Below are positions 554 through 28,065 of a stretch of 28,689 nucleotides of DNA, piece by piece. The stretch lies in assembly GCA_024278215.1 (NCBI GenBank), contig JAJRTR010000025.1:1-28689 (forward strand). Direction: 5' to 3'. Source of the DNA: a bacterium. Lineage in GTDB: Bacteria > UBP15 > UBA6099 > JAJRTR01. Numbering within the stretch: the first letter of the stretch is position 1; each line of letters opens with the position of its first letter. The notes beneath the pieces are model-generated. The model was not told where the DNA came from. It searched no databases and worked only from the letters and a program-made list of their open reading frames with translations. Position numbers and translations under genes: made by a program.

Positions 554-898
554 TCAGAGCTTATGAGTGCCTGCGCCTTCGCGGTGACCGGAAACCCTGT
601 GATATGGCGACGCGACGAGTACGTATGATGTCATATCCACCGGACATGTGGGTATACCGTCCGGGAAATAGTTGACATTCGTTTTGATGTCGCTCATTGA
701 ATCTGTAGGCCATGTAGCTTCAATGTAAAAGTAGGCTTCGATCTGTTTATTAATGATCGCCCTGTTCATTTCACATGACTGTACCTTGGCAGTCTTTGTC
801 GTAACCGTAAACCTTGGAATTACGATTGCCGCCAGGATACTGATCAACAGTACCACCAACATTACTTCCAGTAGTGTGAATCCAGCTTGTTTTTTCAT
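554..898 (-). CDS. Type IV-type prepilin, copy 1 of the array
   Basis: A 114-aa pseudopilin or pilin precursor. It opens with a short basic leader and the prepilin peptidase site MKKQAG|FTLLEV, with Glu at +5, followed by a hydrophobic helix to about residue 28 that would anchor it in the inner membrane and pack in the filament core. The rest is a small globular domain with two cysteines (C42 and C85, probably a disulfide) and the tail motif HRVSGHREGAGTH shared by all five copies. AAGGGG lies 8 nt before the ATG. It is the last gene of the operon, 43 nt after copy 2, and is followed by the terminator. Family membership (N-methylated pilin fold) is clear; whether it serves a pilus or a secretion pseudopilus is not. 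Confidence 0.9.
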   Translation of the reverse strand: MKKQAGFTLLEVMLVVLLISILAAIVIPRFTVTTKTAKVQSCEMNRAIINKQIEAYFYIEATWPTDSMSDIKTNVNYFPDGIPTCPVDMTSYVLVASPYHRVSGHREGAGTHKL

Positions 899-941
899 GT
901 TCTTACCCCTTCTGTAATATAGTTTTGTTACTGAACATACT

Positions 942-1292
942 TTAATTCAAAGTATGTGTACCCGCGCCTTCGCGGTGACCGGAAACCCTGTGATATGGCG
1001 ACGCGACGAGTACGTATGATGTCATATCCACCGGACATGTGGGTATGCCGTCCGGGAAATAGTTTACGTTCGTTTTGATGTCGCTCATCGAATCCGTAGG
1101 CCATGTAGCTTCAACAAAGAAGTAGGCTTCCACCTGCTTATTGATGATCGACCTGTTCATCTCACAAGACTGCACTTTCGCAACCTTTGTCGAGATCGTG
1201 AATCTTGGAATTACGATTGCTGCCAGGATACTGATCAACAATACAACCAGCATGACTTCCAGCAGTGTGAATCCAGCTTGCACCTTTTTCAT
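942..1292 (-). CDS. Type IV-type prepilin, copy 2 of the array
   Basis: A 116-aa prepilin with leader MKKVQAG|FTLLEV, a hydrophobic N-terminal helix, the conserved cysteine pair (SCEMNR and PTCPVD contexts) and the tail HRVSGHREGAGTH. GAGG is placed 8 nt before the ATG. Its last third is nearly the same DNA as copy 1: 83 consecutive identical bases (964-1046 against 573-655), while the middle differs more. Copies 1 and 2 are the closest pair in the array. The role, by family, is subunit of a pilus or type II secretion-like pseudopilus assembled by the ATPase and platform genes upstream. Confidence 0.9.
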   Translation of the reverse strand: MKKVQAGFTLLEVMLVVLLISILAAIVIPRFTISTKVAKVQSCEMNRSIINKQVEAYFFVEATWPTDSMSDIKTNVNYFPDGIPTCPVDMTSYVLVASPYHRVSGHREGAGTHTLN

Positions 1293-1342
1293 ACTTTATA
1301 CCTCGTCTTCCTGTTTTTTGCATTTATACTGTTACGGTTTTC

Positions 1343-1708
1343 TTATCTTTTAATTACGCCGCTGAAGATATGTGTTCCGTCTCCCTCGCGGTGTCCACTG
1401 ACGCGGTGGTAGGGGGAAGGTACGAGCACATAAGATGTAAGATCAACCGGGCACGTGGGTATTCCGTCCGGAAAATAGTTGACATTCGTTTTGATGTCGC
1501 TCATGGAATCTACAGGCCATGTGGCTTCCACAAAGAAGTAGGCTTCCACCTGCTTGTTGATAATCGACCTGTTCATTTCACATGACTGCACTTTCGCCAT
1601 TTTCGTCGATACTGTAAATCTCGGTATGACGATAGCTGCCAGTATACTGATCAGTATAACAACCAGCATCACCTCAAGTAACGTAAAACCTGCCTGGCTC
1701 TTTTTCAT
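1343..1708 (-). CDS. Type IV-type prepilin, copy 3 of the array
   Basis: A prepilin of about 121 aa when started at the ATG at 1708 (MKKSQAG|FTLLEV). The frame stays open upstream to 1852, and an ATG also lies at 1717. I prefer 1708 because it gives a typical seven-residue leader and a GAGAGG placed about 9 nt ahead; the same GAGAGG would abut the 1717 ATG. The two cysteines are conserved; the tail is HRVSGHREGDGTH followed by a few extra residues. The gap to copy 2 is 50 nt and to copy 4 is 49 nt. It is probably a filament subunit like its neighbours. Confidence 0.88.
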   Translation of the reverse strand: MKKSQAGFTLLEVMLVVILISILAAIVIPRFTVSTKMAKVQSCEMNRSIINKQVEAYFFVEATWPVDSMSDIKTNVNYFPDGIPTCPVDLTSYVLVPSPYHRVSGHREGDGTHIFSGVIKR

Positions 1709-1757
1709 TTCCCGCATCCTCTCAAAACTTCGATTTATCACCCTGCTGTTAATATTT

Positions 1758-2138
1758 TTAATGATTGAATTGCAGCATTCTTTCGAATATGTGCGTACCG
1801 GCACCTTCTCTGTGCCCCGAGACTCTCTTGTAAGGTGACGGAACGAGCACATAAGATGTCAGGTCCACCGGGCATGTGGGTATGCCGTCAGGGAAGTAGT
1901 TGACATTTGTTTTGATGTCTGCAAGGGTATCAAGGGGCCATGTCGCTTCCACAAAGAAATACATTTCGACCTGTTTGTTGATGATCGACCGCTGTATTTC
2001 GCAGGCCTGCACTTTTGCTCTTTTTGTCGATATCGCATAGCGGGGAATCACAATCGCACCCAGTATGCTGATGAGGATTACGACGAGCATTACCTCAATG
2101 AGCGTAAAACCTGTTTCTTTTCCTATTAGCTTCCTCAT
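1758..2138 (-). CDS. Type IV-type prepilin, copy 4 of the array
   Basis: A 126-aa prepilin with leader MRKLIGKETG|FTLIEV, slightly longer than in copies 1-3, then the hydrophobic helix, the cysteine pair (QACEIQR and PTCPVD) and the tail HRVSGHREGAGTH with a short C-terminal extension. It is more diverged than copies 1-3 in the middle segment (EMYFFVEATWPLDTLAD region). A purine-rich AGGAG precedes the ATG. It is expected to be cleaved and methylated by a prepilin peptidase that is not encoded in this window. Confidence 0.88.
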   Translation of the reverse strand: MRKLIGKETGFTLIEVMLVVILISILGAIVIPRYAISTKRAKVQACEIQRSIINKQVEMYFFVEATWPLDTLADIKTNVNYFPDGIPTCPVDLTSYVLVPSPYKRVSGHREGAGTHIFERMLQFNH

Positions 2139-2179
2139 ATCCTGTTGCTCCTGTTCAAATACAATATATTTAATCCGGT

Positions 2180-2548
2180 TCAGTTAGGCAGAACGTGTGT
2201 TCCGGCACCTTCCCTGTGTCCGCTGACCCTGTGTTTCGGAGCAGGTGCCAGCACATAAGAAGTCATATCAACCGGACATGTTGGTATTCCGTCCGGAAAA
2301 TAGTTGTCGTTTGTTTTTATATCTGCAAGTGAACCAAGCGGCCAGGTACTTTCTGTGAAGTAATATGTCTCAACTGATGTATTTATTATTGCCCGATTCA
2401 TTTCACATGCTTGCACTTTTGCTGTTTTCGTTCCTATAGAAAACCTGGGGACAATTATTGCTGCCAGTATGCTTATCAGCACAACTATCAGAAGTACTTC
2501 TATAAGTGTAAATCCACTCTGATTGATTTTCAGTCCGGTCAGAAGCAC
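2180..2548 (-). CDS. Type IV-type prepilin, copy 5, start codon uncertain
   Basis: The prepilin core is clear (KINQSG|FTLIEV, hydrophobic helix, cysteines in ACEMNR and PTCPVD, tail HRVSGHREGAGTH), but no ATG lies at the expected place. The residue where siblings have the initiator Met is CTG (2531-2533). In-frame alternatives are GTG at 2548, which I list (12-residue leader, with GGAAGG almost touching it), GTG at 2557, and TTG at 2626, which would give a leader of about 38 residues. None has a well-spaced ribosome site. It is the first pilin after the platform gene and the most diverged copy. It may be translated weakly, may start at a rare codon, or may have lost its start. Confidence 0.75.
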   Translation of the reverse strand: MLLTGLKINQSGFTLIEVLLIVVLISILAAIIVPRFSIGTKTAKVQACEMNRAIINTSVETYYFTESTWPLGSLADIKTNDNYFPDGIPTCPVDMTSYVLAPAPKHRVSGHREGAGTHVLPN

Positions 2549-2626
2549 ACCTTCCACAATAATCTGTAGACTTTTATCAACAACTTCCGTGCCAACTTCA
2601 GTAAAACCCTGCCTGGAAAAATCCAA

Positions 2627-3003: not shown

Positions 3004-4209
3004 TCAATTGGGGGCAAAACTGACAATATTGAAGATGGGAAGATACATGGCGATAGCGATAAATCCGATAATGAAAGCCACGAAAACTGTTATCAGGGGT
3101 TCGAGAATCAGCAGCAATCTCTTTATCAGATGATTGAGTTCTTTTTCCAGCGCGTCGGCACTGCCGTCGAGCATTTCCGACAGGTTACCGTTCTGTTCGC
3201 CGGCGGCTATCATGTAGGTCACGAGAGGGGAGAAGTCTCTGGACAACCGCAACGGCGACGAAATCGTCCCGCCGGATTCGACACTTTCTATGACCCTCTA
3301 GAGGTCTCTTGAAATGCAATCGTTTTCTACAAGGCTGCGGGCGGTTTCAAGTGAGGTGATGACCGGCACCCCGCAGTTGAGCATTGATCCGAGAGTGCGG
3401 ACAGTTCGCGAAATCGCTATCCTTCTATTTATAGGGCCGAATATGGGGACCGACATCCGCAGCCTGTCATAAGTAGGTTTTGTCGACGGGCTGCTCTTGA
3501 ACAGCAGGAACCCGACAAACAACACAATGAGCGCGCCTATGCACATCATCCAGTTACTGACGAGGAAATTGCTGATCCCGAGCATAATTCTTGTCGTCTG
3601 GGGCAGTTTCAGGCCTGCATCGGAATATATCTTGTCGAATGCGGGGATAACTTTGAAAGTGAAGAAAAACACGGCAACCGCCGCGAGCGTAAGAACAAGT
3701 TTCGGATATGTAAACGCGGAACTGATCGCCCGTTTCAGTTCGACATCTCTTTCGAGATACTGTGTAAGATTGTCAAGCACCTTAACGAGATTACCGCTGG
3801 CTTCACCCGACTTTATCATGCTTATGTAAAAATGGGGAAATACCTTCGGGTGGTTCTCGAAAGCGGCGGATAGTGAGACTCCGTTTTCGACTTCTTCACG
3901 TATTTTTTTTATTACTTTTTTCAGAGAAACATTTTCAGTCTGCTCTTCGAGCGCCGCGAGCGCGTCGACCGCCGGAAGCCCTGTGGATATGACGGTGCTG
4001 AGTAGTTTTGTGAAAATCACGATGTCGTCGATCGTTATCCGCTGCTGGATGAGGGTGATTCCTTCGGATAGTTCTTTTTCCGTGACGGACAGTACTACAT
4101 AGCCGAGTTTCTGAAGCCTGAAGAACACGGCCTGTTCGGTGGCACCGTAAAGAGTGCCCTGATAGTTTCTGCCGAGCTGGTCTTTTGCTATGAATTTATA
4201 GTGTGGCAT
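3004..4209 (-). pseudogene. PilC/GspF-type inner-membrane platform protein, interrupted by in-frame TAG
   Basis: The reading frame is that of a PilC/GspF platform protein, the polytopic membrane protein on which the assembly ATPase acts. Two GspF domains are visible: residues about 60-190, with a membrane segment near 170-190, and about 260-395, with a C-terminal membrane helix. The frame would be about 401 codons, the usual family length. Codon 304 (3298-3300) is TAG; the 15 codons after it continue in the same frame (RVIESVESGG) into a normal second domain (SPLVTYMIAAGEQNG), so this is a single nonsense codon and not a frameshift. The product would lack most of the second domain. It starts 22 nt after the ATPase gene with a weak ribosome site. 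Possible explanations are a decaying gene, a sequencing or strain variant, or read-through. Confidence 0.88.
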
Positions 4210-4231: not shown

Positions 4232-5935
4232 TCAGTCTATGCTGATGAAAACCGCTTTTCTGACTTCTTCGAAAGTAGTAATTCCTTCGACAACTTTTCT
4301 GAAGGACGCATGGCGCAGAGTGCTCATACCTTCTTTTATAGCAGCCTGTCTTATGTCGCCTGCGCCCCGGCCTTCGAACACCATTTCCTGTATCGTTTCC
4401 GTGACACGCATTACCTCGAAGACACCGATCCGGCCATAATAGCCTGTGAAGGAACAGAATTTGCATCCCCGGCCTCTGAAAAGTGTGGCCTTTCCGCGTT
4501 TTTCGGATTTTACGCCGAAATCGCGGAAAAGAGTCCGGACATCAACTTTATACGGTTCTTTGCAATAAGGACATATCTTTCGGATAAGTCTCTGTGCGAC
4601 AACACCAATGAGTGATGCCGCGAGCAGATAGTCCTGCACACCCATTTCCACAAGTCTTGTGATGGCATTCGAGGCGTTGCTGGTGTGCAGAGTGCTGAAA
4701 ACGAGATGGCCCGTGATGGACGCCTGGTTCGCGATGCGGGCAGTTTCACTGTCGCGTATCTCACCTACCATTATAATGTTAGGGTCCTGTCTCAATATGG
4801 AGCGCAGCCCGGTGGCAAACGTGATGCCCGCGCCCTGGTTGACCTGCGACTGGTTGATGCCCGGCAGCTTGTATTCGACGGGGTCCTCGATTGTAACAAT
4901 GTTCTCTGTCTGGTTGTTTATCCTGCTGAGAATGGAGTAGAGAGTAGTGGTTTCTCCGCAGCCTGTGGGGCCGGTAACGAGAATCATGCCGTTCGGGCGC
5001 TCGATCAGGTCTTTTATTACAGTGAGGTCGCGGCCTTCGAGTCCCAGCCCCTCGAGACTGATAAGCATATTCTCCTTACTCAGAATACGCATAACAACTT
5101 TTTCGCCGTTTATAGTGAGATAAGTGGCAGCGCGAATATCATACTCGCGACTCCCTTTTTTTATCGTGATATGACCGTCCTGCGGGACCCGTTTTTCGGT
5201 TATGTTCATGTTCGACAGAATTTTTATCCTGGATATGACGGAAGCCTCGACATGGCTTGGTATCTGCATGACATCATGAAGAACACCGTCGATGCGGTAG
5301 CGCACCCTGAGCGCGTTTTCCTGGGGTTCGAGGTGTATGTCGCTTGCACGCTCGTTGATAGCCCCGTCGATGATGTCTACAACAAGCCTTACAACCGGCG
5401 GGCTTTCCACCGCGGCCAGCATGTCGTCGATAATAAGCTCGCCGGTCTCCAGTGGAATCTGCTCCTCGACGTGCATGTCGATAATTGTCTGCCGGGTTCT
5501 GTGTTGCGGGTTGAAGTGCTGGTTCAGGGCAAGCCGTATCTCGTTTTCAGCAGCCAGAAACGGTTCCACATTGTAGCCCGTGGTGAGTTCCACCTCGTCG
5601 ATAACCGACATATCCACCGGCGGTGCGAGAGCGAGACTGATCGTGTCGTTTTCAATGCTGAACGGGAACACGTTGTGTCTTCGCAGCAGATCTTCCGGAA
5701 GCAGGTGCGAAACCTGTGGATCGACATTGTCGTCGCTAAGCTCGATGCGAGGGACAGCGAGCTGCTCTGCCAGCACATCCACCATATCTTCGTGTGAGAT
5801 CAAACCGAGTTCGACAAGAGAATGGACTATTGCCTGATCTCCCGCTCCCCTTGCCTGTCGCCGGGCCTGCTCGTACTGTTCATGAGAGATAAGTTTTTTT
5901 CTCTGCAATATTTCCGCGACACGTGCACGCGCCAT
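4232..5935 (-). CDS. PilB/GspE-type assembly ATPase with altered Walker A
   Basis: A 567-aa cytoplasmic hexameric ATPase of the GspE/PilB family that powers pilus or pseudopilus assembly. It has an N-terminal GspE-type domain (about 1-150) and an ATPase core (about 175-560). Visible motifs are Asp box IEDPVEY (349-355), Walker B region IIMVGEIRD (387-395), His box GHLVFSTLHTSNA (409-421) and the zinc-binding cysteine pairs C455/C458 and C491/C494. Walker A reads GPTGCGETT (322-330): Glu328 (GAA, 4952-4954) stands where the family has the phosphate-binding Lys, and Cys326 where Ser is usual. By family knowledge this should abolish ATP hydrolysis. GGAG lies 8 nt before the ATG. It is the first gene of the minus operon. 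Confidence 0.93.
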   Translation of the reverse strand: MARARVAEILQRKKLISHEQYEQARRQARGAGDQAIVHSLVELGLISHEDMVDVLAEQLAVPRIELSDDNVDPQVSHLLPEDLLRRHNVFPFSIENDTISLALAPPVDMSVIDEVELTTGYNVEPFLAAENEIRLALNQHFNPQHRTRQTIIDMHVEEQIPLETGELIIDDMLAAVESPPVVRLVVDIIDGAINERASDIHLEPQENALRVRYRIDGVLHDVMQIPSHVEASVISRIKILSNMNITEKRVPQDGHITIKKGSREYDIRAATYLTINGEKVVMRILSKENMLISLEGLGLEGRDLTVIKDLIERPNGMILVTGPTGCGETTTLYSILSRINNQTENIVTIEDPVEYKLPGINQSQVNQGAGITFATGLRSILRQDPNIIMVGEIRDSETARIANQASITGHLVFSTLHTSNASNAITRLVEMGVQDYLLAASLIGVVAQRLIRKICPYCKEPYKVDVRTLFRDFGVKSEKRGKATLFRGRGCKFCSFTGYYGRIGVFEVMRVTETIQEMVFEGRGAGDIRQAAIKEGMSTLRHASFRKVVEGITTFEEVRKAVFISID

Positions 5936-6548: not shown

Positions 6549-6622
6549 GCGCCCGTAGCTCAGCTGGATAGAGCGCATCCCTGCGGAGGATGAGGTCTCA
6601 GGTTCGAATCCTGTCGGGCGCA
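6549..6622 (+). tRNA. tRNA-Arg (anticodon GCG)
   Basis: A full cloverleaf: acceptor GCGCCCG/CGGGCGC with discriminator A, D-stem GCTC/GAGC, anticodon stem CATCC/GGATG with loop CTGCGGA (anticodon GCG, codon CGC), and T-loop TTCGAAT. The T-stem has one T-T mismatch at its outer pair. CCA is not encoded. Most bacteria read CGN with an ACG anticodon deaminated to inosine, so a genomic GCG is less usual. Confidence 0.93.
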
Positions 6623-6630
6623 CTGGCGGA

Positions 6631-6703
6631 GCCCCCATAGCTCAGGCGGATAGAGCGCTGGATTCCTAATCCAGGTGGACAGGTTCGAGTCCTGTTGGGG
6701 GTA
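6631..6703 (+). tRNA. tRNA-Arg (anticodon CCT)
   Basis: Cloverleaf: acceptor GCCCCCA/TGGGGGT (first pair G-T), D-stem GCTC/GAGC, anticodon stem CTGGA/TCCAG with loop TTCCTAA (anticodon CCT, codon AGG), T-stem ACAGG/CCTGT and T-loop TTCGAGT. CCA is not encoded. It sits 8 nt after the first tRNA-Arg and is presumably cotranscribed with it. Confidence 0.93.
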
Positions 6704-6752
6704 CTGAAATGAGGCTCCCTACAGCAAACCACGAGAGTATCAAAGATGTGCC

Positions 6753-26648: not shown

Positions 26649-28065
26649 ATGCCCTATTATGGACAGAGGAAACCGCGGGGAGAAGTCAAACTGACGGAGA
26701 TTATCAGCATGGGCGCTCTGGCGCGAGTTATTCCTGCGAAAGTTGTTGACGAGGCGGTGGAAAAACATGAAAGGAAGGAGACTCGAAATCGTTTACTTCC
26801 TGCGAGAGTAACGGCCTATTACATTATTCTGATGACGATATACAGTCATCTGGGATACCGGGAGATATTGCATGTGATGGTGGAGGGATTCAAAGCACTT
26901 TTCAAGGATCTGAAGGGCTGGCATGTGCCTCACAAATCTGCGGTCACGCAAGCAAGAGCGCGTTTAGGAGCCGAGCCGATGAAGGAACTTTATCGCAACA
27001 TAGTGAGGCCTGTCGCTAAAAAGGAAACAAAAGGGGCATGGTATCGTGGCTGGCGGCTGACAAGTTTTGACGGCACGACACTCGACGTCGCGGACACACC
27101 GGAGAATGAAGCAGCTTTCGGGCGACCTGGCAATGGTCGCAGCGATAACAAGAGCGCATACCCGCAGGTGCGTCTGGTCATGCTGTGCGAGCAGGGAACC
27201 CATGTTCTGGCTGATGTTGAATTCGGCAATCTGGCCACTGGAGAACAAAAAATGGCGCGCAGCCTGTTTCGTTCATTGGAGCCGGAAATGCTCAACCTTG
27301 CAGATCGTAATTTCTTCGGCTACAAGCTGTGGAACGAAGCCAGCGCCACGGGAGCGCAACTGCTGTGGAGAGTGAAGAAAAACTTGATACTCGAACCTGT
27401 GAAGACATTTGAAGACGGATCATTCACCGCATGGATCTATCCCAGCACAAAAGCGCGGCGCAAGAAACATAACGGAATACTTGTGCGGGTCATAGAATAT
27501 ACTATTAATGATTCCGGCCGCATGGACACAGAACCGAAATACCGCCTGATAACAACCATATTAAACCCTGACGACGCGCCCGCCCATGAACTGGCCTGCC
27601 TCTACGAACAGCGACAGGAAATCGAATTCACTTTCGACGAAATCAAAACACATCAGCGCGGCGCCGGCGTTGTGCTTCGCAGCAAAACGTCGCAAGGAGT
27701 TGTCCAGGAAATCTATGGCTACCTGCTCGCCCACTTTGCCATACGCAGCATCATGCACGAAGCCGCCCTTGCGCTGGATATCGATCCCGACCGCGTTTCA
27801 TTCACAAACACTATTCGCATCATCCGAAGAAAGCTTCAGCGGTTCCAGTCCATTTCCCCCCAGGCGGTGGGGTGATTTGCATCAGGAGATTATAGATGAA
27901 ATCGCACAGGAATTATTGCCGAAAAGAAGGCTTAGAATGAATCCGAGAGTTGTCAAAAGAAAAATGTCGGGGTATGCTCTGAAACGCCGGAAACACAGGA
28001 ATTATCCGCAACCGTCCAAGAGAATTCCGGATGCTGTGAAAATTGTCGGCGAGGTGCTTAACTGA
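26649..28065 (+). pseudogene. IS4-family transposase, C-terminus frameshifted
   Basis: A DDE transposase with an IS4-type N-terminal domain (about 10-125), Asp141 in SFDGTTLDV, Asp219 in LADRNFFGY and the YREK signature Y319-x2-R322-x3-E326-x6-K333. AGGAGG precedes the ATG. Frame 0 stops at 27873-27875, 408 residues in. The expected C-terminus (GDLHQEIIDEIAQELLPKRR, NPRVVKRKMSGY) continues in the +1 frame to 28065. The switch falls around a run of six C (27856-27861). An indel disabling the C-terminus is the simplest reading; programmed +1 slippage on CCC-C is possible. The catalytic core is intact. Confidence 0.85.

Follow-up and report, generated by a model that had tools for sequence, protein, structure and literature searches.

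What becomes of a pilus assembly ATPase when the lysine of its Walker A motif, which contacts the phosphates of ATP, is replaced by glutamate? The question is raised by a pilB/gspE-type gene in the window, the whole stretch of 28,689 nucleotides analysed here. The original prediction, made from the letters of this DNA, described an otherwise intact ATPase and offered three options: the protein is dead, it is a regulatory subunit of another ATPase, or the codon is a sequence error or variant. Alignment to close relatives and a hunt for a second GspE/PilB gene were proposed as checks. Both were run, and the pair formed by this gene and its neighbour pilC is most likely a spare copy of ordinary pilus machinery that died recently, rather than a motor of a novel type.

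The PilB protein and its P-loop

4232..5935, minus strand: pilB/gspE-type pilus assembly ATPase gene, 567 amino acids, MshEN and T2SSE domains, P-loop Lys changed to Glu (open reading frame; Pfam)
4952..4954, minus strand: pilB codon 328, GAA (Glu) in GPTGCGETT (alignment and orthologue codons)

The pilB product passes the curated Pfam cut-offs for both of its domains, with 431.4 bits for T2SSE (cut-off 24.9) and 72.7 bits for the N-terminal MshEN domain (cut-off 23.1). Its best NCBIfam model is type_IV_pilB (TIGR02538), where it scores 579.3 bits, below the cut-off of 675.65; an intact PilB homologue encoded on contig C190 of the same genome also falls slightly under this cut-off, at 648.4 bits. 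The closest solved relatives are the PilB structures 5zfr and 3jc8, and the protein aligns over residues 3-561 with the PilB (5zfr, 3jc8 and Thermus PilF, 6f8l) and GspE/EpsE subfamily. It shares with this family the MshEN region, the T2SSE core, the Walker B motif, the Asp and His boxes and the zinc-site cysteines, which are visible in the translation, but differs from it in having glutamate for the Walker A lysine, so that GPTGCGETT departs from the GxxxxGK[ST] pattern.

The predicted codon is as described, since positions 4952-4954 read TTC on the plus strand, giving GAA in the coding direction. When 122 PilB/GspE-family proteins, drawn from the window's order, other phyla and a GTDB-based collection, were aligned, column 328 was lysine in 121 of 121 homologues and glutamate in the window protein only. 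The integrity of the remaining motifs was likewise borne out: of the 60 columns with at least 95% conservation, 59 are kept and K328 is the sole departure. All five orthologues from the same order (60-67% identity) read GPTGCGKTT with AAA at this codon, which rules out a degenerate P-loop common to the clade; GAA is one transition away. Of the genomes compared, this one alone thus has glutamate at position 328.

K328E would take away the phosphate-contacting lysine, and normal ATP binding or hydrolysis by PilB would not be expected. In Pseudomonas, PilB with a Walker A Lys-to-Ala change (K332A) has been used as a catalytically inactive control (PMC12533971). Glutamate at this P-loop position should do no less damage than alanine. 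A search of the open literature found no paper joining "degenerate Walker A" with PilB.

The adjoining pilC gene

3004..4209, minus strand: pilC/gspF inner-membrane platform gene, 401 codons with one in-frame TAG inside (translation; T2SSF match)
3298..3300, minus strand: premature TAG at pilC codon 304, within the second T2SSF domain (translation; orthologue codons)

The next gene downstream of pilB is pilC, and it carries a second lesion. The original prediction gave the pilB change correctly but overlooked this stop next door, and its account of the locus was to that extent incomplete. The window PilC is 53% identical to an orthologue over residues 1-401, with one TAG within. Four orthologues extend over codon 304, and each has GAC (Asp) there with matching sequence around it. 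Two bases separate GAC from TAG, so that a single miscalled base is insufficient to explain the TAG. Many members of the wider family have glutamate at this column, and a path from GAC through GAG to TAG is plausible; a GAG intermediate would leave a single-base last step. The TAG sits in a 10-base palindrome, CCTCTAGAGG. As an ordinary stop it would remove the remainder of the second cytoplasmic domain of PilC and the last membrane helix.

The reading frame downstream of the TAG is still conserved. Counting positions beyond the stop, PilC keeps the family residue at all 16 columns with at least 95% conservation and at all 30 with at least 85%.

Genomic surroundings and spare genes

554..898, minus strand: pilin-like gene p1 (open reading frame; Pfam)
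942..1292, minus strand: pilin-like gene p2 (open reading frame; Pfam)
1343..1852, minus strand: pilin-like gene p3, as listed, the true start probably lying nearer 1700 (open reading frame)
1758..2138, minus strand: pilin-like gene p4 (open reading frame; Pfam)
2180..2626, minus strand: pilin-like gene p5, in the tandem array downstream of pilC (open reading frame; N_methyl)
6549..6704, plus strand: two tRNA-Arg genes (GCG, CCT), upstream of pilB (tRNA search)

In the window, pilB-pilC is flanked by the two tRNA-Arg genes and the five-gene tandem pilin array. The five pilin-like genes (554-2626, minus strand) share near-identical C-terminal motifs resembling RVSGHREGxGTH. The most similar pilin pair of the window, p1 and p2, has a dN of 0.045 and a dS of 0.50, and these downstream pilins have therefore evolved under constraint. 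The order has related tandem pilin arrays at other loci too (G005 contig C156, G001 contig C40 and others).

The orthologous genes are arranged differently. In two genomes of the same order (G001 and G005) pilB and pilC follow genes for a response regulator, a histidine kinase and NtrC, in that sequence, and in G002 and G003 an NtrC-type gene adjoins pilB. The window resembles the five-gene operons in having a PilB with the GPTGCG variant of the P-loop followed by pilC, but their PilB retains the lysine and their pilC is intact. In this genome, in contrast, the orthologous regulator-kinase-NtrC operon lies on contig C170 (L159, 15645-18981), where it adjoins a radical SAM gene but no pilB-pilC, while the window pair stands between tRNA-Arg genes and pilins. 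No relics of the response regulator, histidine kinase or NtrC gene were found anywhere in the window. Some NtrC-like matches were listed with in-frame stops, which a core-domain search did not reproduce.

The hunt for a second GspE/PilB gene returned two, adjacent on contig C190 and both with the normal P-loop GPTGSGKTT. Another, intact PilC is encoded on contig C129, and the genome also has several PilT-like genes and an apparent Tad-type set on C199, judged by domain content. No second orthologue of the window PilB was found in the genome, and no plasmid or viral-contig copies were found. In a related draft genome, a PilB homologue (L049; G005 contig C355, 839-2548) is reported with one in-frame TGA, and interrupted pilB-type genes are therefore not unique to this genome.

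Loss, error or a purposeful dead ATPase

The explanation that we favour, with somewhat better than even confidence, is that pilB-pilC is a redundant second pair whose function was lost very recently by point mutation. The two lesions, the uniqueness of the glutamate, the conservation of the remaining sequence and the intact spare homologues are observed directly; loss of activity, redundancy of the pair and fixation of both lesions in the population are what we infer. In support, none of the 121 homologues departs from lysine, pilC contains the TAG, spare copies are intact and the pair is separated from its ancestral regulator-kinase-NtrC partners, which are still on C170. Pilus assembly in the cell would then depend on the intact pilB genes of C190 and the intact pilC of C129. 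The first of the three original options, a dead protein, is favoured by the pilC stop, the unique glutamate and the intact spares; the regulatory subunit is poorly supported, and an error or variant is possible.

Against loss stands the state of the remaining sequence. With 59 of 60 conserved columns kept in PilB, and none lost in PilC at either threshold, there is no accumulated decay, and the downstream pilins are under purifying selection. Nor do the proteins evolve faster: the distance to outgroup homologues is 0.594 for the window PilB (0.590-0.594 for intact orthologues) and 0.724 for the window PilC (0.726-0.739). The pair thus has the disabling lesions of pseudogenes, K328E and the in-frame TAG, while the relaxed constraint or faster evolution of pseudogenes is absent. 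Since conserved positions are intact and no rise in rate is seen, any loss would be very recent, or the lesions are not real.

The main rival treats the two lesions as errors or minority variants: one or both codons would be wrong in the draft consensus or come from a minority strain, and a working pilB-pilC would be present in most cells. The genome is a 207-contig draft (95% complete), intact conserved positions without acceleration are as expected of working genes, and K328E needs a single transition. The window also contains an IS4-type transposase gene (26649-28065, plus strand) whose last ~60 residues are apparently in another frame past a GGGG run near 27870; this suggests a frameshift, and thus that other disruptions are present in the contig. 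However, this rival would require two independent errors in one functional pair, ~1.65 kb from each other, the pilC TAG differs at two bases from the codon that four orthologues share, and the window's other large genes are open.

A screen for nonsense codons bridged by homologues bears on the same point. It covered 433 kb, roughly a tenth of the genome, and considers nonsense codons only, with no bearing on the rate of missense errors. The pilC gene stood out by far, being the only one whose nonsense codon was bridged by many homologues (70); eight other candidates had 1-4 each, and the one of these examined further, a PilT candidate on contig C77, proved to be a gene boundary. Homologue-bridged nonsense codons are otherwise rare in these 433 kb, which speaks against a genome-wide excess of them and against the rival. 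That both members of a functional pair carry a lesion, and that the pilC stop lies two bases from the orthologous codon, favours biology over random error as far as the sequence goes. We consider error or strain variation possible but rather unlikely.

A third explanation is that the Glu-bearing PilB is a non-hydrolysing structural or regulatory ring alongside another, active PilB. Outside codon 328 the protein is fully constrained, two active-looking PilB homologues are encoded on C190, and a precedent exists in Vibrio cholerae, where retraction by PilU proceeds when PilT bears K136A but fails when PilT is absent (PMC6821130). A member defective in Walker A can therefore serve as the platform of an active paralogue. 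That precedent, however, is an engineered alanine mutant of a retraction ATPase, whereas here a natural glutamate occurs in an assembly ATPase and the platform gene is broken too. A dead ATPase evolved for a purpose is unlikely because the glutamate is unique to this genome, occurring in none of the 121 other homologues, nor in the five orthologues, and because the cognate PilC is truncated. We regard such a ring as improbable, and its more specific form, a natural charge-reversed pseudo-ATPase that regulates or templates the cell's two active PilBs and is maintained by selection, as very improbable.

Least credible is that the pilC TAG is read through, or that PilC is made in two parts, so that K328E alone affects the system: past the TAG the PilC tail shows the same conservation as its orthologues, but TAG is an ordinary stop that ends four of the window's 26 genes, general TAG readthrough was not seen in the 433 kb of stretches sampled, and the window's only tRNA genes are the two normal tRNA-Arg genes.

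The locus gives no support for pilus assembly without the ATP-binding lysine. It also carries a lesson for draft genomes, in which partner genes should be inspected before a new function is assigned to a change in a catalytic residue. If recent loss of the redundant pair is real, it would be a small example, from a little-known phylum represented by seven genomes in this analysis, of a redundant pilus motor pair lost after parting from its regulators.
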